DNA of 64,000 nucleotides from Bolinopsis microptera (lineage: Eukaryota; Ctenophora; Tentaculata; Lobata; Bolinopsidae): positions 13,935,675 to 13,999,674 of the forward strand of contig NC_087076.1 of assembly GCF_026151205.1 (NCBI RefSeq), given 5' to 3'. Both the position numbers and the translations under genes were made by a program. The notes beneath the pieces were generated by a model. That model saw only the letters and a program-made list of their open reading frames with translations. It was not told the DNA's origin and did not search any database. Of the stretch, positions 5,006 through 38,554 are shown in pieces (the stretch's first letter is position 1; every line of letters begins with the position of its first letter).

Positions 5006-6975
5006 CACAAACGTTAAAAAGAAACTTGCACCAAGAAAATCAAAGAAAAATAAGGAAGAGTGTGGGAAAAGAGCCTTATCCACGTATAGCTCTTTATCAA
5101 GGTACGAAAAGAGTATTTTCGATCGATCCTTATTTACTTTCAAATGCTTATATTTTGTTATCCACGAAAGGCAAAACTAAACGCTTTTAAGCGTTTAGTT
5201 TAAAAACTAAACGCTTAAACTGAAATTTTATTTCAGTATTCTCCCTGAGGAAATATTGCAATCGGTACAGGAGTCAATGTAAGTTATAAGATAGTGGGTA
5301 TTAAACAAGAGGCGGGGTTGATTTAAAATTCGTTTATCTAAAATTCTGTTGTTTTAATTTGTACATATAAGCCGACAGCTCTACTATCAATATTCTCTTT
5401 TCTCTAATATCAATATTATCTTTTCTCTGAGGATATTATAATTAAAAGACGTTCCCCATAAATTTAGAAATTAACTTGAATTTTATTTTCAGTGAACTTC
5501 TTCCTGCTGTAGTGAGACAGGACCTCCCTAGAGCTCAGGAACCAAGGTCTATTTTCTTAAAGAAAGAGACTGTAGAATAAGTCTATATTTAGGTTTTGGT
5601 GTTTCGTAATTATATTCAATTATCTTTTTCATAAATCAGCTGACAGAAGCTTTACTATCACTATTATGTCAGAAAATGTTTTAGAAGAAAGTTTCGAAAT
5701 AGAAAATTTTGCCCCTTACCTGGACTGACATTTTATTTTCAGCGAACTTATTCCTGCTACAGTGGAACATGAACCCAGGTATGTGTTCTTAGCATTATAC
5801 TACGTCTACCCCTATATTTTATTCCATATAATCGACTCTTCTATTGTTATTGTATATTTGTAATCTTTCTTCACTCTTATGACGTAGATCATAAAGTTAA
5901 ATAGTTGGTGACGAATTTTGCGAGTGAACTTGGAGACTCTTACTTCGTTATCAACTATCAATCTATATTACATATTGTGGAAAATAATCATGGCTGCAAA
6001 TTTTGCTACTTTATATTATTCCCGAAAACAAATCTGAACAAATTTCATTATGATTCATAGGAGTAATTTACTCTTTAAACAACACGCTAGACATAACTAA
6101 CTATGTCCATTAAACATGAAATAAGATGATGCTTTATCTTTATTTCCTTATATAGTTTCAGGTCCCCAACCATCGAGCCTTTAAGTCCCTCCCCTACGAC
6201 TAGCATATCAAGGTACATATAAAGTTCGGTATGGTACATTAGTTGAGCACAATCAATATCTTAGAAGTTGATATGTTTTAAATAAAATTGATATCCATGC
6301 AATTTATAATTACGTCGACATTTTTATCATTATTTATCTGAATCTCTTCAGGACTCATTGGTATCCCATGACGAGCACCCCCACGACACCTTGCTCCCCA
6401 GTTATCGACCCACTCCACAACTATGAGTTTATGAGGAGAATAATGGAGGATGCCCTTGCACCGTACAAGCGGGATTTGAAGAAGGTGAAGGAGAAGACTG
6501 AGTGCTACAAGCGAGAATTGGAGGAGGTGAAGGAAGATATGAAGTCTCTGGGCATAGATATGTCTCGAGCATTTGACACAATCAAACGCCAGACTATACT
6601 TGACCTTCTTGTCAAAGCTGGATGCACAGACGACGACCTCAGGCTAGTAAGACTCCTCTTAGCCAACACCATGCTCAAGGTCAGAGTGGAAGGAGAACTA
6701 TCTGCTGTATTCGAGAGTCTTCTTGGGTCCTTTCAAGGTGACAGTCTCTCCGGCAAGCTTTTCACTCTTGTCCTAGCAGGAACTCTTATTGAACTTCGCC
6801 ATCGACTACCAGAGTCTCCCCCACACATACCCAATCCCCCTATTTCCAAAGAAGGTATGACACTGGAGTCAGCGTATTCAGACGATTGTAACTTCATGAA
6901 AGTGGAAAAAGAATCCTTAGAAGCTATCCTACCAATAGCTAAGGAAGTCTTCAAGGAGTTTAACCTGTTCATTAA
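5006..6975 (+). CDS. Multi-exon gene whose last exon runs into LINE reverse transcriptase
   Basis: Exons are 5006-5100, 5237-5278, 5493-5546, about 5743-5777, about 6162-6211 and 6352 onward. Each has TTNCAG before it and GT after it, and every junction is phase 2, so the frame stays open throughout. The small exons repeat a short theme (ILPEEI, ELLPAVV, ELIPATV). The last exon encodes a Pro/Thr-rich stretch, a charged coiled coil (KRDLKKVKEKTECYKRELEE) and then, without a break, reverse-transcriptase motifs: SRAFDTIKR, LGSFQGDSLS and YSDD. The endonuclease and early RT blocks are absent, so the RT part is probably a 5'-truncated LINE inserted in the exon in frame. The reading frame is cut at 6975 by the foldback element. 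Host exons: moderate certainty; RT identity: high. Confidence 0.6.
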
Positions 6976-7007
<32 letters not shown>

Positions 7008-8012
7008 CACCCTGATTTTTTTGTGAAACTTGGTTTCGAGATAGCAGTTGACCAACAAACTAGGACCAGTGACCGAACTTTTGAAGGGGTCCCGGACCCC
7101 AACCGCCAAACGGTGCCCACGGGGCAGCCACGCCCATATTTGGTCCAAATTAGGCCCAATTTAGCCAAATACCCTGAACATGCCCAAAATCCAGATTTTA
7201 AGTGCTCTACTTGTAGCTAGTGGTCCCATGAACTCGTATATGAATTTCATCAAGATTGGACAAAAAATGACTGAGTTATGAGCAAAAAACCATATGACCA
7301 TATTTGGGCATTTGCACCAAATTTGATCGATTTTGGCCCATAAATTGGCCAAATATCAATATTTTTGAATGAAACCAACTTTATATGGAAGGTAAGCCTA
7401 TACTAAACATTATCTATGATTATCAGCTCAGTATCTACCTAATTGTGGATTCTATGTTCAAATAATCGCAAAAAATGAACAAAGTTGCCCATATCTCAGT
7501 TCGCAATATTTGCAAAACTGACTTGGCTCAAAACAATAGAACTCAATAGGGTTTCAATATTTTTTCATGAAATTTTCAGAATCAACGTAGAATTGTCTCA
7601 TGACCTTAAGTTTTGGAACAGAATTTTGAGTTAGGGCTTTAAAAAAATTTGGCGGCCAAATTCCAAAATTTGCACTGCTAAATTTAGTTGTTTGTTAATG
7701 CTCTTATGCTCCCCCAATTTGACTACCTGGATATAATAATAAATAAATAATAATAATAAAATTTGGTAGCTTAAACACAAACTCTAAGCCCAGTGGATAA
7801 ACCACAAAACTTATGCTCTATTGTGTGAAACAAAGATACTAGATCAAGATAACTATCAAGGAGTGTATGCATAGGACATAAACAGTTTTGGAACGAAGGT
7901 GACATGCTTATGAAGCGAGCTAACAGTCTAAATGCTAATAAGTTCAAAAAGATCATGACATTAGGTTGCATCCTAAACAGTTTAAGCAAATAAAATAAAG
8001 TTATATTGTCAA

Positions 8013-10871
8013 TTAATCGCTCAAGCCATAACTTTTCTTAAACAGGTGAGTTTTTAATAATGTTTTGAACAGATCAACATCAGAACAAGTCTTAATTTCA
8101 ATTGGTAGTTGGTTCCAGATTTTCGGAGCAACAGTCTGAAACGCTCTTGGGTGCGATCTTGCAGATCCGACAGGTAGGTGTAAGGAGGAAGTTCTTCTGC
8201 TACTCGAACTAACAAATGTTACTAGATCACACAGATATGCAGGAGCAACACCATTGACTGCTTTGAAAATCAGTAAACATAACTTAAACTCAATCCTTTC
8301 CTTCACCTTGAGCCAATGAAGGGATTTGAGCTTCTCCTCGACTGAGTCTCTCTTCTTTAATCCAAAAACCAGACGGCATGCTCGGTTCTGAATGTTCTGC
8401 AGCTGCGCAATTGAGGCTTGACTACAACCATAGTAAAGCGCATTGCAGTAGTCAAGCGATGAGATTACAATTGCTTGAGTCAGTGTTCCCATCTGTTTGG
8501 TTGTGAGGAATGTTTTCATCTTAGCAAGGTCTCTTAGTTTCAGAAAACACGATGTTTTAAGTTGCTTGATTTGCTCACCAAAGTTTAGTTGAGAGTCGAG
8601 ACGAAATCCGAGGTTCTTTGCAACAGGTGACAGCCTGACACACGTCTCAGAGTTAACAAACACGCCCCCTATAGACAGCTGCTGGAGAACAAGCGGTGTC
8701 CCAAAAACAAGAATCTCAGTTTTTCCTGCATTGAGCTGTAGATAATGTTTTTTCATCCAGTCATTAATTTCTTGGAAACATTTGGGAACATCGTTGATAA
8801 GGACGGTGGGCTCCTCGTTTGGCTTGAAACTTTTATACAGCTGATGATCGTCGGCGTAACCCTGGATGGAGAAGTTCAAATCATGTGCTGCTGAGTACAA
8901 AGAGCGAATGTAGATGTTGAACAGGACCGGACCCAGCACAGAGCCCTGTGGGACTCCAAACTTAATCACTATCTCATAAGATTCCTCATTTCCAACTTTA
9001 ATCGTTTGACATCTACCTGTGAGGAAGCTGCTGAACCATTTCCAAGCTGTCCCTGTTATTCCCAACTCATTTCTGAGGATGTTCAGTAGTTTGCAGTGGT
9101 CAACTGTATCAAAAGCTGCACTGAGATCTAGGAGAAGAACAACAGTTGCCTTGCTTTCTGTAGATGCAATGAGCAGATCGTTAACAACTCTCACAAGCAG
9201 AGTCTCGGTGCTGTGTTTTGATTTGTATCCAGACTGCTGTGGGATGTTCAGGTTGTTGTTTTCTAGATGTTCATTTAGACGCCTGAGCACTACTCTTTCT
9301 ATCAACTTGCCTACAAAACTGAGGTTAGATATTGGTCTGTAATTCTTGAGATTATCACTATCTAATCCCTGGCCCTTGATCAGGGCCAGGGGTGTGATAT
9401 GAGCTAGTTTAGCGCCATCAATACTACCAGAAGATAATGAAGCATTTACTATGTCAACTAAGACAGGTAGTAGAACCTCAAGGTTTTCTTTAAAGATGTT
9501 TGCAGGTAGAGGGTCGATTGAAGAAGACTTGATCTCAGATGCCTTGATTATCTCTTCTAGTTCTTCTATAGTAGTTGGAGAGAACTCAGCTAGTTTTTCT
9601 CCGCAGTAAGAGGGCGTTTGATCGTCAGACTCCACATGATCAAAGTTATTACGTATTGCCTTTATTTTCTCCTGGAAATATACGTTAAAGTTTTCGACTG
9701 TGTCCTTGAGAGACTCCGACGAAGGCAACACAATGCTTTTATCCCGATCAAGAAAGGTGTCCACAAATCTAAAAAGACTCTTAGAAGAATAGGAATGCTT
9801 TATGAATTCGACTTTGAAAAACTCATGTTTCTTCCTGTCTGAGAGTTCTGTGCACTGCTCTCTGATTGATTCATAGTGTGTCTTGTCAGTTAAAGATCCG
9901 GAGATTTTCCACTTTGTCTCGGCTTTTCTTCTTTGGCTTCTAAGTGCTTTATATTCACCATCGAACCAAGGGGCAGACTTACGTTCTTTGATTTCCTTTG
10001 TGAGGAGAGGAGCATGGTTATTCAGCACAGTTAGGCACTTAGAGTTGTATAGGCTGATGCGGCTTTCAAATGACGGCATTTCAGCTTGTGATAGACCCTC
10101 AGGATCCATTACAGTAACCAATTCCTCAGCAAGATTATCCGCAAAACAATTTTTGTCAATTTCTTTGACATTTCTGAATGTGATAACTTTTTTCTTGTTG
10201 AGATTGCTTGCAACTGTTTTTGTGAGGCTAAAAGTAACCGGGAAATGGTCACAGTTTGGGAACATTTCCGAGGTGTGCGAGTCTACTGTGACACTCTTTG
10301 GATTGACTATCTGATGGGAGGAGATTACAACATCCAGAATATGTCCTTTGTTGTGAGTTGGATCTCTCACGTATTGATGCAGTCCATAGCTGGCCAATAC
10401 TTCAGTCAGTTTGGCCGTGTTTCTTGATTTATGTTCATCCAAATGAATATTAAGATCACCACAGATTAAAAACTTCTTGTATTTCATGAATATGTTCCCA
10501 ATAAACTCATCCAAATCTTCAAAAAATACATCAGTCAATGACCCTGGTCGGTAAACACAAGCACAGAGTACAGTATCACCCGATGAGTCCCGAAATTTGC
10601 CTAAAACTGCTTCAAACGTATCTCCACACTTATCAAACACAGGAGTAATGTTCAAATCACTTGAATTGTAAATAATATCAACTCCTCCGCCTCTGCATTT
10701 AACGGAGTCTTTCCTGATGTAGTGAATCAAGTTATAGCCGTAAGACTTGATGGTAGCAGTAACATCATTCTTCATGCTGGTGAGCCAAGTCTCAGTGACA
10801 AAAAGGACAGAGATTCTTTGGTCGATTATAGATTCCATGATTGGTTGAATCTTATTATTGAGAGATCTCAC
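8013..10871 (-). CDS. LINE ORF2: AP-endonuclease and reverse transcriptase
   Basis: This frame encodes the enzyme that nicks target DNA and copies the LINE RNA there. From the first residue given, endonuclease motifs are TETWL (about 26), CGDLNIHLD (about 137-145) and CDHFPV (about 207). RT motifs are LLLDLSAAFDTVDH (about 579-592), GVPQGSVLGP (about 639) and YADD (672-675). The C-terminal LHWLKVKERI block is typical of L2/CR1-type elements. The frame is uninterrupted to the stop at 8013. The start shown is a GTG; the conserved endonuclease start (GCCWNVRSLNNK) continues upstream, and no in-frame ATG occurs between the upstream stop (in the GCT GAA context near 10975) and the ATG of PIMES, which lies inside the domain. 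The frame is -1 relative to ORF1, so expression most likely depends on frameshifting (see 10877-10934). Confidence 0.95.
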   Translation of the reverse strand: MRSLNNKIQPIMESIIDQRISVLFVTETWLTSMKNDVTATIKSYGYNLIHYIRKDSVKCRGGGVDIIYNSSDLNITPVFDKCGDTFEAVLGKFRDSSGDTVLCACVYRPGSLTDVFFEDLDEFIGNIFMKYKKFLICGDLNIHLDEHKSRNTAKLTEVLASYGLHQYVRDPTHNKGHILDVVISSHQIVNPKSVTVDSHTSEMFPNCDHFPVTFSLTKTVASNLNKKKVITFRNVKEIDKNCFADNLAEELVTVMDPEGLSQAEMPSFESRISLYNSKCLTVLNNHAPLLTKEIKERKSAPWFDGEYKALRSQRRKAETKWKISGSLTDKTHYESIREQCTELSDRKKHEFFKVEFIKHSYSSKSLFRFVDTFLDRDKSIVLPSSESLKDTVENFNVYFQEKIKAIRNNFDHVESDDQTPSYCGEKLAEFSPTTIEELEEIIKASEIKSSSIDPLPANIFKENLEVLLPVLVDIVNASLSSGSIDGAKLAHITPLALIKGQGLDSDNLKNYRPISNLSFVGKLIERVVLRRLNEHLENNNLNIPQQSGYKSKHSTETLLVRVVNDLLIASTESKATVVLLLDLSAAFDTVDHCKLLNILRNELGITGTAWKWFSSFLTGRCQTIKVGNEESYEIVIKFGVPQGSVLGPVLFNIYIRSLYSAAHDLNFSIQGYADDHQLYKSFKPNEEPTVLINDVPKCFQEINDWMKKHYLQLNAGKTEILVFGTPLVLQQLSIGGVFVNSETCVRLSPVAKNLGFRLDSQLNFGEQIKQLKTSCFLKLRDLAKMKTFLTTKQMGTLTQAIVISSLDYCNALYYGCSQASIAQLQNIQNRACRLVFGLKKRDSVEEKLKSLHWLKVKERIEFKLCLLIFKAVNGVAPAYLCDLVTFVSSSSRRTSSLHLPVGSARSHPRAFQTVAPKIWNQLPIEIKTCSDVDLFKTLLKTHLFKKSYGLSD

Positions 10872-10876
10872 ATTCC

Positions 10877-10934
10877 AGCAACAGCCAAGAATCTCTGTCG
10901 GAGAGGATTTCAGACCACTGCTTACAAGTTTTTT
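10877..10934 (-). promoter_or_regulatory. Predicted -1 programmed ribosomal frameshift signal
   Basis: In the ORF1 frame the end of ORF1 reads TCA AAA AAC TTG TAA. The heptamer A AAA AAC (10934-10928) fits X XXY YYZ, the canonical -1 slippery site. Five nucleotides later (TTGTA) a 10-bp stem can form: AGCAGUGGUC (10922-10913) pairs with GGCUGUUGCU (10886-10877), four pairs being wobble. Inside lies a second short hairpin (AAUC-CUCU / AGAG-AUU). A -1 slip bypasses the ORF1 TAA and continues CTT GTA AGC into ORF2. Slippery site, spacing and frame are seen directly; activity is inferred. Confidence 0.75.
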
Positions 10935-12313
10935 GAACTGTAGTAATTGATAGTTTTGCGGAGATGCTGCTGTTCAGCAACATAAGCTGGACATGTCCTA
11001 TCAAATGCTGTGTGTGTGTTTCTTTCATCCCGATACTTGCCCTTAGAGCAGTTAATGCAGCATGGGATAGGACTATTAGTTTTCTTTTCTGGACAATCTT
11101 CTGACGTATGATTCTTGGAACAATAACCACAAATAGCTTTTTCTGATTCACACTCTGACCTGTAGTGTCCAAAACCTTGGCATTTGTTGCATCGTTTTAC
11201 ATGAAATTGATCATAAACTTTGCAACTAAACGAACTGATGTATAGCCGATCTCCCTGTTGTTCTATGATTTTCCTAATATTGTTACTAACTCGTATAGTA
11301 GCTTGATGCTTGCTGCTGTTTTTGATCTGAGGTTTAACTTTTAGTACGGAAAATGTTTCACCCTGGGATTTTAATGCCTTAATGTTGGGGTGAGCTTGAA
11401 GGAGCAGGTCTTCTAGATCTTCTTCAGAATAATTATCAGCAAGGTTAGCAACAGAGATTGTGGGCAAACGTTCTGGTGGCTGGTGCGTTTTTATTTCTGG
11501 AAGTTGCTGGGATACCTTCTTGACAAGATTTTCCCTGTCAGCCGTTGTCGGACACACAACCACAATTTCCCCTTTCTTGTTGACATACCGTTTGTCAGCA
11601 TGAATGGCGTTGTCTTTGATGATTTTGTCAACATCTTTGCGATCTTGATCTTGATTTTCTGGTGTTTTGCTGGACATGATTAATACAGAGCGATATGAAG
11701 GGGCAACTGGTGCTGGAGATGAAGAAATTTCAGTTATGTCCGGAGATGTTTTCATATTCACAACTTTCATAAGTAAACCCTTCATGTCCTCCATAGATTG
11801 GGTCAGATTATCTACTCGCCTGTCAATCAGGTCGACTTTACTTTCGGCACTGACTGCGGAGTTCTGTTCAGAGTGTGTCTTGCAGACATTACACACAAAC
11901 GTAAAAGTCCCAAATCTGGAACTGTTAACACCCTTGGTTGCGTTTCTGTCGGAATATGCTTTGAAGAAAGTGCGAGGACAGATTACATCAGTATTAATCC
12001 TATCTTTATCAGCATCTCGACAAACAGCATGAAATGACGATTTACACAAAAAGCAGGTAAGAGCAGTGTCATTGGCTTGAGCATCATTACAGGTGTTACA
12101 AGTGCCGTCTTTGATGTAGGCAAACTGGTATTGAAGAGTGTTACCTTGTCGCTGTTGAGTACTTTCAGAGGATGTGGATGAGTTCAGGAAAGGTGTGAAA
12201 CGTTGCGGGGATAACATATCTTCGCTAACATTCCCGTCATTCTTTGGCGTAACATCCTGTAACGAGATTGAGGACCTGTTACCCTCATCATCAACACCAC
12301 CTTCTCCGATCAT
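10922..12313 (-). CDS. LINE ORF1: PHD-like finger plus CCHC zinc-knuckle RNA-binding protein
   Basis: A 463-aa frame from ATG to TAA. ORF1 proteins of this LINE type coat the element RNA. A Cys/His cluster at about residues 72-144 (C72, C75, C87, C90, H95, C98, C112, C141, C144) has PHD-finger spacing. A short heptad stretch follows at about 160-187. A central domain of about residues 280-360 may be the RNA-binding fold. Zinc knuckles occupy the C-terminus: CNKCQGFGHYRSEC, CGYCSKNHTSEDC and a third, longer one (C419, C422, H434, C441). It ends with the slippery sequence two codons before the stop and overlaps the open ORF2 frame by about 50 nt. Confidence 0.92.
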   Translation of the reverse strand: MIGEGGVDDEGNRSSISLQDVTPKNDGNVSEDMLSPQRFTPFLNSSTSSESTQQRQGNTLQYQFAYIKDGTCNTCNDAQANDTALTCFLCKSSFHAVCRDADKDRINTDVICPRTFFKAYSDRNATKGVNSSRFGTFTFVCNVCKTHSEQNSAVSAESKVDLIDRRVDNLTQSMEDMKGLLMKVVNMKTSPDITEISSSPAPVAPSYRSVLIMSSKTPENQDQDRKDVDKIIKDNAIHADKRYVNKKGEIVVVCPTTADRENLVKKVSQQLPEIKTHQPPERLPTISVANLADNYSEEDLEDLLLQAHPNIKALKSQGETFSVLKVKPQIKNSSKHQATIRVSNNIRKIIEQQGDRLYISSFSCKVYDQFHVKRCNKCQGFGHYRSECESEKAICGYCSKNHTSEDCPEKKTNSPIPCCINCSKGKYRDERNTHTAFDRTCPAYVAEQQHLRKTINYYSSKNL

Positions 12314-12378
12314 TGCGCACTTCTTTTACAAAGTGAAACAGTGCAAATCAGCAGAGTCAGTAGAGAATCAAAATTGAG

Positions 12379-13300
12379 TTCGGGGTCCTATGGTGTAGGG
12401 CTGCCAAAACCAAACTTAATTCTCTTGATATATTATACAAGAAAGTAGCAAAAATTGCTCTGGATGTTCATTGGCAGGAACCATCAGTAAATGTATATCG
12501 AAATATGAAGTGGTTACCCTTACACTTAAGAAGACAACTCCATCTATCAACGTATATGTATAAAATTCTTAATGAGGCTGCACCATCATCATTTACAGAT
12601 AAATTTTCTTATGTATCCGGAGGATCACGTGATGCTGAGAGATGCAACCTTTATATTCACAAATCCAGAACACACAAAACCTTTACATATTTAGGTGCAA
12701 AATGTTGGAATACAATTCCAGAGAACATAAGGACTATAGAATGTAGTGTAAAATTCTCACAATGTATGAAATCTAAATTTATGTCAGATGTAATTCAAGG
12801 AGTCTCATCCTATGAAATAAATAATAGTTTCGACTATTTTTACACTCTAGCTATGTGAAAACTGAAACAAATTTTATGGTGCTGGAGTTTTTGTCGGGTG
12901 GAAAGGCCCCCTGCGTTATATGACCTATTTCCAGAAGTATAGAACTTTAAACATCTCCTTTATTCGTTCCCATTTGTTGTCATTGCCAATCTATTATTGT
13001 TCTATACTTCTCTGTGTATAACTGTAAATAACATTACTAACGTAATTCCAAAGTGGGCATCTATGTAATCTTAATTGTTACCTTCATGCCCACAGTTCAC
13101 TGTTAAATCATATTTTATTTTATCACTCATTGATTTATTACTCATTATGTTTTACATACTATATCCTTATGTCCCTAGAAGGGTGTTCTGCTGACAGTTT
13201 TCGACTGACTTGAATGTCCTGCACAGCAGATTGAAGCTTCTTAAATTATTTTTTATTCTTATTGTATTGCTGTGTAAATTTGATTCTAATTCTAATTCTA
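12379..13300 (+). mobile_element. 3' fragment of a second LINE
   Basis: A plus-strand frame from about 12390 to the stop at 12858 encodes the C-terminal tail of a LINE RT: a YKILNEAAPSSF block, then CWNTIPENIR. A 3' untranslated part follows and ends in repeated ATTCTA units (13281-13300). The 5' end is lost where the minus-strand LINE begins. The right arm of the foldback starts directly after the tail. Confidence 0.75.
12390..12858 (+). pseudogene. RT C-terminal tail, 5'-truncated
   Basis: An open frame of about 155 codons with no RT catalytic motifs. Only the region downstream of the palm remains (WLPLHLRRQLHLSTYMYKIL and following), as in RTs of the CR1/L2/RTE type. It is a dead fragment carried inside the foldback element. 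Confidence 0.7.
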
Positions 13301-37174: not shown

Positions 37175-38554
37175 GATTGTAGGACTGAATCCCTACCGGA
37201 CGGAATCACTACCACCCAAATATCACTACTGGTAGTGATTTAGTCCGGTAGAAATTCAGTCCGAAAATATACCTCAATCCCTACCAGATGATCTTAGTTC
37301 ACTAGTTCTAATATCATGACGTGATCTGAGCCAGGGCTCTCATGGAGTGCTTGCTATGGGGCCTGGCAGACATGTGATCCACAGACTTACGTACGCAACG
37401 AGGAGCCCTAACGAGAACTGGTTCGGATCAAGTCATTCATAATGACCTGCTATACGACAATACAGTGATGTGAACCTTCACATGCTCGGTATCTCAATCA
37501 GCTAGTGGGAATAATATATAAACCCGCTACGCCTGTGTTTATCTTATACCACTATGTCTTCCTCATCCATCGAGTTTATTCCTGGCAGAAAGAAAGGCAG
37601 CCGCAACGTCCTCTACGATGGTCACCTCTACCACCTTAACAGAAAGAGGGAAGACAAGACCTACTGGAAGTGCAACAAGTGCAAGTCCCGCCTGATCCTT
37701 GTCCAGGACACCTTCTGTTCTGCTACCCCTCATGATCACGAATCAACTGTGATCCCAAGTCATTGGCACGACTAGTCAGACGAGCCAGACAGGCAGCCTA
37801 CTCCCATCCTGTCAACCCCATCTCCTTAGAAGACCTGGTGATTCCTCCTAACTACCTGACCTCTCCCGGTGGTGACACTATGTTGCTCTGGGACTCCTCC
37901 TACGACACCAACACCAGAAGATCTATCCTCCTTGGTACTGCAGACAACATCAACATCATCTATCAGTCAGATCACCTCGTCGTGGATGGAACCTTTAAGA
38001 CCTCTCCAGACCTGTTTACTCAACTCTTCACAGTCCACGCCTTACACCCTACTGGATGGAGAATCCCTGCAGCCTTTGGACTCCTACCCGGGAAGCGCAC
38101 CATCATGTACGAGAACATCCTCAACGAACTGGACTCCTACGGACCCTTCGTTGATGATTATGATAACTTTGGGGATGTTACCGAGTTTCTGAAAGCTGTT
38201 GGATCTAAGATTTTGGGTTAATGCTTTAATGTTTACTTATTATTGTGTGATTTAAATTACTCTATCAGTATATTATCTATTATTCTTTGACCAAATTTCT
38301 GCTTAGTCAATTATCACGAAAAATCTAATAATAATTAACAAAAAATAAAATAATTAACTAATGAAATACGAATAATTATGCCTTTATTGCAAAGTTCAGT
38401 AGGGATCACATCAAAGTGGTTAGGTCTAGATATTAGCGGTAGTGATTTAGTCCGGTAGAGATTCAGTCCGAAAGTATACCTCAATCCCTACCAATAGTGA
38501 TTGGTAGTGATTCAGTCCGTTAGGGATTCAGTCATGTAGTGATTCGGTCCGTTC
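37175..38554 (+). mobile_element. 1.38-kb MULE transposon with 12-bp target duplication
   Basis: ACCATAATAGAT flanks both sides (37163-37174 and 38555-38566), a size typical of MULEs (8-12 bp). The ends are inverted: GGACTGAATCCCTAC on the left, and the complement of GGACCGAATCACTAC on the right. Inside each end the unit GTAGTGATTTAGTCCGGTAG recurs, so the ends have both inverted and direct repeats. The element carries a FLYWCH-MULE coding remnant. Confidence 0.85.
37554..38221 (+). pseudogene. FLYWCH zinc finger fused to MULE transposase, frameshifted and truncated
   Basis: The first frame (37554-37775) has a FLYWCH finger: LYDGHLYHLNRKREDKTYWK, then CNKCKSR and PHDHES. The second frame (from about 37763 to 38221) is shifted by one base and holds the MULE N-terminal catalytic part: HLVVDGTFKTSPDLFTQLF, then PAAFGLLPGKRTIMYENIL. 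The Asp in VVDGTFKT is the first catalytic residue of MULE enzymes. The rest of the catalytic domain is missing before the stop. One indel near 37740-37765 separates the two parts. Confidence 0.75.

Follow-up and report, generated by a model that had tools for sequence, protein, structure and literature searches.

At the gag-pol junctions of retroviruses and LTR retrotransposons, a heptamer of the type X XXY YYZ stands in the zero frame of the upstream open reading frame (ORF), the downstream ORF lies in the -1 frame with a short overlap, and the replication enzyme is made as a fusion protein. Some CR1/L2-type LINEs carry a 2A-like (StopGo) peptide, of which NPGP is the signature. The use of -1 sites by LTR retrotransposons is noted in a passage of PMC5009743. 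How ORF2 is translated in LINEs is a long-standing question, and for the best studied ones passages of two papers give reinitiation or an initiation of unknown kind (PMC5009743, PMC5972666): translational coupling in SART1 and a proposed reinitiation in LINE-1 (PMC5972666), and an ORF2 initiation described as unknown in mammalian LINEs (PMC5009743). For Paramecium LINEs, studied as consensus sequences, a +1 shift, reinitiation or readthrough was suggested for ORF2 in passages of PMC5405496. The gag of HeT-A, a telomeric non-LTR element of Drosophila, is said in a passage of PMC5009743 to need a frameshift.

Here we describe the ORF1-ORF2 junction of a LINE from a window of 64,000 nucleotides of the Bolinopsis microptera genome (the whole stretch of DNA that was analysed), together with the junctions of its relatives in the same genome. 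The junction is like retroviral and LTR gag-pol junctions with sites of the A AAA AAC type in the phase of the heptamer, the -1 position of the downstream ORF, the short overlap and the predicted fusion; it differs from them in that the element is a non-LTR one with an endonuclease, and no shared downstream stem or pseudoknot was found. With the 2A-carrying LINEs of the CR1/L2 type it shares a related ORF2 and, as we predict, recoding, but NPGP is absent from the junctions of the present families. Like SART1 and mammalian LINE-1, the element is a two-ORF LINE with endonuclease and reverse transcriptase in ORF2; compared with the accounts of both in passages of PMC5972666, the present families have no stop-start overlap, have a conserved slippery site, and in several cases lack an ATG at the ORF2 start. 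The shift suggested for the Paramecium LINEs is +1, and these passages of PMC5405496 describe no slippery site. In HeT-A the shift serves gag, and the element encodes no reverse transcriptase itself. Searches of the open-access literature gave no report of a LINE with a -1 slippery site at its ORF1-ORF2 junction; a prior report may exist elsewhere, in subscription papers or Repbase notes. On the evidence given below, -1 programmed frameshifting at A AAA AAC, yielding an ORF1-ORF2 fusion, is very probably the best explanation of the junction.

A full-length LINE in the window

The element, designated family A, has the following features.

7732..12389, minus strand: full-length family A LINE of about 4.66 kb whose 3' tail is (ATT)n-like (comparison of genome copies)
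10922..12313, minus strand: ORF1, 463 codons from the first ATG plus TAA
11975..12100, minus strand: PHD-like zinc finger in ORF1, a weak match (Pfam PHDvar_NSD, 21.7 bits with a cut-off of 27, E 0.00021)
8013..10973, minus strand: ORF2 open frame, 986 codons plus stop, in the -1 frame, with endonuclease and reverse transcriptase (Pfam Exo_endo_phos, 1.6e-7; RVT_1, 6.8e-32)
8706..9350, minus strand: reverse transcriptase domain (RVT_1, residues 542-756)
10860..10877, minus strand: endonuclease start WNVRSL, 5' of every ORF2-frame ATG (N34 and S37 identical in all 10 families of the alignment)

The 5' end at window position 12389 was shared by 14 of the 17 family A copies compared (12 in one piece, two in two pieces), and the remaining three started internally; at the 3' end all 17 stopped within window positions 7730-7743. 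A protein search of the 264.65-Mb genome with ORF2, in which 46 of 6359 candidates were scored, returned family A copies at 94-100% identity, save one fragment at 62%. The whole ORF2 (residues 1-986) was matched by 18 family A copies, that of the window included, at 98-100% protein identity. The same search returned a second LINE family with about 54% identity to family A.

By Pfam, an APE-type endonuclease and a reverse transcriptase are both present in ORF2, as in LINEs of the CR1/L2/Jockey type. In PDB searches, ORF2 matched chains of LINE-1, R2 and other reverse transcriptases, and ORF1 had weak matches alone (best E 0.061). The C-terminus of ORF1 in family A has CCHC zinc knuckles (seen by eye), and the C and H columns of ORF1 were conserved in the seven families aligned; an ORF1 type with PHD and CCHC zinc knuckles is described for CR1/L2/Jockey-type LINEs in passages of PMC4120745. 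No Pfam match to a protease or integrase was found in the family A element.

The window also holds pieces of other elements. A 164-codon open frame on the plus strand (12364-12858) adjoins the 5' end of the LINE and is followed by a TTCTAA repeat near 13283; by eye it resembles the C-terminus of another LINE ORF2, and Pfam gave no match to it. A reverse transcriptase fragment of another element lies at 6272-7015 on the plus strand (RVT_1, E 5.3e-8), and a weak Pfam match to a MULE transposase, under the curated cut-off, was found at 37736-38221, also on the plus strand.

The junction between ORF1 and ORF2

The junction of the window copy is composed of the following parts.

10922..10973, minus strand: overlap of ORF1 with the -1-frame ORF2, 52 nt
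10928..10934, minus strand: slippery heptamer A AAA AAC, in phase with ORF1 (TCA AAA AAC TTG TAA), conserved in 13 families/subfamilies
10922..10924, minus strand: ORF1 stop TAA, one sense codon (TTG) 3' of the heptamer
10877..10922, minus strand: putative stem with arms AGCAGUGGUC (10922..10913) and GGCUGUUGCU (10886..10877), 10 possible pairs including four G-U, with a second hairpin enclosed
10836..10838, minus strand: first ORF2-frame ATG, codon 46, too late for the whole endonuclease

An earlier note on this DNA had proposed that ORF2 is made by -1 frameshifting from ORF1, and its description of the primary sequence was correct. The ORF2 frame, -1 relative to ORF1, stays open from 10973 to 8013 and spans the end of ORF1; the heptamer is in the ORF1 frame at 10934..10928, with TTG alone between it and TAA; and the spacer is 5 nt long (TTGTA). 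The claim that ORF2 has no ATG before its endonuclease start also held for the window copy, since the first ATG, at codon 46, lies beyond the endonuclease residues N34, S37, N40 and K41, which were invariant in the alignment of 10 families. An overlapping stop-start of the UAAUG type is absent in family A: the sequence at the ORF1 stop is UAA GCA, and ORF2 has its first in-frame ATG 84 nt further downstream.

Conservation of the heptamer among LINE families of the genome

Other junctions were collected by genome searches with an ORF1 query (105 matches) and two endonuclease-start queries (150 matches each). The sample consisted of 143 stretches, a subset of the matches found: 29 longer ones, 53 short ones from the ORF1 search, 40 and 20 from the two endonuclease-start searches, and L001. 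From the junction sequences we assigned 139 of them to 16 families or subfamilies and left four unplaced. Families were searched for by protein and not by the heptamer, but both endonuclease queries include the two Lys residues that the heptamer encodes in the ORF2 frame. A stretch counted as positive if AAAAAAC was present, if ORF1 was open in that phase over the 60 nt on its 5' side, and if the -1 frame had no stop over as much as 75 nt on its 3' side, or less at stretch ends.

In 109 of 119 stretches from 13 families or subfamilies, A AAA AAC stood in phase and both frames were open around it: A (26/29), B (18/19), B' (2/3), C (11/11), F (13/13), G (10/13), I (6/6), K (2/2), L (5/6), M1 (4/4), M2 (4/4), M3 (3/3) and N (5/6). 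Families D1 (0/2), D2 (0/6) and E (0/12) scored zero, as did the unplaced L065, L079, L081 and L082 (0/4). The ten misses within heptamer families (L028, L037, L085, L127, L128, L105, L113, L115, L162 and L163) are copies that have point changes, indels or an insertion, carry a nonsense codon upstream, or lack ORF1. Two of these single copies, L163 and L162, both from otherwise conserved families, carry AAAAAAA and AAAAAAG, respectively, in place of the heptamer.

The zero-frame site reads TCAAAAAACTTGTAA in family A, CAAAAAAACTGGTGA in B, TCAAAAAACTGGTGA in B', TCAAAAAACTAG in C and F, TCAAAAAACATGTAA or TGA in G, TCAAAAAACATGATGTGA in I and TCAAAAAACGTAATGTGA in K. In the families in which ORF1 extends 16 codons beyond the heptamer, AAA AAC is preceded by GCA (L and M1), TCA (M2 and N) or ATA (M3). 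The heptamer follows the last -1-frame stop after one sense codon in I and L and after two in M1, M2 and N, none of them ATG, and after three to thirteen in the other families. In the L-like families (L117, L118, L124-L126, L146-L161) the -1 frame mostly opens 1-2 codons 5' of the heptamer, unlike in family A. Comparison of other genomic copies, which the earlier note had suggested, showed that all 13 families or subfamilies preserve the heptamer in the same phase and in the same position, 3' of the last -1-frame stop and 5' of the ORF1 stop.

Codon choice at the site

In an ORF2 tree of 12 in-genome sequences (M1-M3 and N left out), the identity between the two large clades (A-E versus F, G, I, K and L) was 29-34%, or 30-34% for the heptamer families alone. 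At the latter identity, silent positions should be saturated. In each of the seven open ORF1 frames that were scanned for AAAAAAC (families A, B, C, F, G, K and L; 329-537 codons, those of F and L seemingly truncated by a stop further upstream, those of G and K beginning at the stretch edge), the junction heptamer was the sole occurrence in any frame. As a codon control, seven ORF1 C-termini were aligned, and columns with at least six of seven residues alike were taken. Outside the heptamer, all 29 such columns showed more than one codon; a 30th listed column was excluded, as in it Ser codons of the heptamer were mixed with others. The aligner spread the heptamer over shifted columns, and its codons were therefore read from the sequences directly: Lys was AAA and Asn was AAC in all seven families. 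When synonymous codons were shuffled within each ORF1, an in-phase A AAA AAC arose in the overlap with P of 0.03-0.20 per family. The product over the seven families, about 8e-9, is just a guide because the families share ancestry. The codon control and the synonymous shuffles point to selection on the site beyond the protein sequence. Together with the uniqueness scan and the census, the shuffles also bear out the view that a heptamer in such a phase and place is far above chance.

These results bear on the explanation that the heptamer was left over from common descent or reflects a Ser-Lys-Asn protein constraint and plays no translational role. Lys-Asn at the site is indeed common to the heptamer families, mostly after Ser. 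The codon choice is nevertheless improbable given the protein (the above product over seven families), and equally conserved residues elsewhere vary in their codons in 29 of 29 columns; we regard this explanation as hardly credible.

Families D1, D2 and E

In the ORF2 tree, D1, D2 and E group as a sister to C. None of their 20 stretches (L055-L059, L062, L063, L066-L075, L077, L078 and L080) has A AAA AAC in the overlap. ORF1 of D1 and D2 does contain AAAAAAC at other places, and that of E lacks it altogether; in D2 one A AAA AAC lies five codons before the overlap, and a slip there would run into a stop. All 20 stretches contain (C/U)CC UUU U in phase with ORF1, at a point where both frames are open. 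In E, CCCUUUU inside the overlap is the sole X XXY YYZ heptamer of ORF1, and in D1 and D2 the sequence is UCCUUUU, which breaks the X XXY YYZ rule at the first base. Possibly, (C/U)CCUUUU is a second shift site in these three families.

The run of six or seven A at the heptamer would also suit transcriptional slippage, by which some mRNAs would carry ORF1 and ORF2 in one frame. Slippage of this kind requires neither a C after the run nor a particular codon phase, but 13 families have preserved both of these, and E, D1 and D2 have just four or five T in a run, which makes it a very improbable source of ORF2.

RNA folding downstream of the heptamer

The earlier note had also described a 10-bp stem enclosing a second hairpin and, on this basis, a complete frameshift cassette in the right order and frame. 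The pairing is possible, and the heptamer, its phase and the open -1 frame are in place; the stem, however, is neither more stable than expected by chance nor shared by other families, and it is not a conserved part of the site. In the window copy its stability gave z = +0.31, and 125 of 200 shuffles were at least as stable. Among stem-forming copies, z was -0.1 to -1.1 over the 50-60 nt downstream and positive over 90 nt; in copy L025 a change disrupts one stem pair. Folding of 11 families gave z from -1.0 to +1.7, with lower values in F (about -2, at 80 as well as 120 nt) and, for 120 nt, in A (-1.7), and revealed no nested fold common to them. We therefore rejected the stem as a conserved stimulator, as it is no more stable than shuffles and has no like fold in other families.

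A rough scan of 10 families gave no common pseudoknot candidate. The best candidate of family A was equalled by 2 of 100 shuffles and was discounted, as it leaves no nucleotide to cross stem 1 and is sterically unlikely. Since no simple downstream structure is common to the families, either little stimulation is needed or the stimulator escaped detection.

Start codons of ORF2

The first ORF2-frame ATG is beyond the endonuclease motif in families A, E, G, K and L, so that an AUG start cannot yield the whole endonuclease; the D1 junction L063 likewise has no ATG ahead of the motif. An ATG between the -1-frame stop and the motif is present in B, B', C, F, I and D2, and in B, B', C, F and I it is 3' of the heptamer, right before the motif. 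In M3 (L154-L156) an ORF2-frame ATG lies inside ORF1, five codons 5' of the heptamer. Relatives with an ATG before the endonuclease start, which the earlier note had counted as evidence against its proposal, are thus found in B, B', C, F, I, D2 and M3 and not in A, E, G, K and L. Reinitiation or internal starts may occur in the former group.

Termination-reinitiation, in which the ribosome restarts at a nearby ORF2 codon after the ORF1 stop, was reported for SART1 and proposed for mammalian LINE-1 (in a passage of PMC5972666) and agrees with the position of the ATG in B, B', C, F and I and with its presence in D2. It meets difficulty in A, E, G, K and L, which have no ORF2-frame ATG before the motif, does not account for L, M1, M2, M3 and N with their extended ORF1, and leaves the fixed A AAA AAC unexplained; we consider it unlikely. 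Less likely still, and on a par with transcriptional slippage, is a start of ORF2 by internal or non-AUG initiation that involves no frameshift. Such initiation could serve the ATG-less families, and the ATG of M3 inside ORF1 would fit an internal start, but neither a fixed heptamer nor a fixed codon choice is required for it, and no fold is common to the families.

Relatives in other records

No relatives were found among viral contigs, nor among GTDB contigs with a single-sequence query. An alignment-based search of the GTDB contigs gave five LINE-like stretches in records titled as prokaryotes. Four of these contigs, all but L145, were read upstream of ORF2; they are 25-35% identical, and none has the heptamer at the junction. 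Two carry NPGP near the ORF2 start, before the endonuclease: L142 at 496-507 (ORF2 33% identical) and L144 at 445-456 (25%). The records of L142 and L144 are titled as archaeon and Marinifilum MAGs, and these contigs are probably eukaryotic contamination. As the heptamer is lacking in all four contigs and two of them have NPGP, the heptamer is not a general trait of all related LINEs. Within the genome studied here, NPGP did not occur in any frame of the 143 stretches around the junctions, nor in the ORFs of 13 longer copies.

Proposed mechanism

The anatomy, phase and codon choice of the site are conserved in 13 families or subfamilies. The central claim of the earlier note, that ORF2 is expressed through -1 frameshifting, has gained strong comparative support from these families, which belong to two clades 30-34% identical and have fixed codons at the site. 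According to the frameshifting mechanism, the majority of ribosomes would end at the ORF1 stop. A minority, with AAA (Lys) in the P site and AAC (Asn) in the A site, would slip back by one base on A AAA AAC and continue in the ORF2 frame, giving a fusion of about 1,433 residues in the window copy (462 + 971). This fusion would be the working protein, comparable to retroviral Gag-Pol. That slipping occurs, how often it does so, and that the fusion is the working protein we infer from sequence comparison.

We also lean, with less assurance, towards a broader scenario, in which the -1 frameshift fusion is ancestral and general in the whole LINE lineage, A AAA AAC acts nearly bare, with no strong structure, and D1, D2 and E swapped it for (C/U)CCUUUU. 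As families about 30% identical have kept the same codons at the slippery site, frameshifting can be put to a direct test. If frameshifting is true, the ORF1:ORF2 ratio would be fixed and the LINE enzyme would be a Gag-Pol-like fusion, and one lineage of retroelements would use frameshifting while related elements carry 2A-like motifs.
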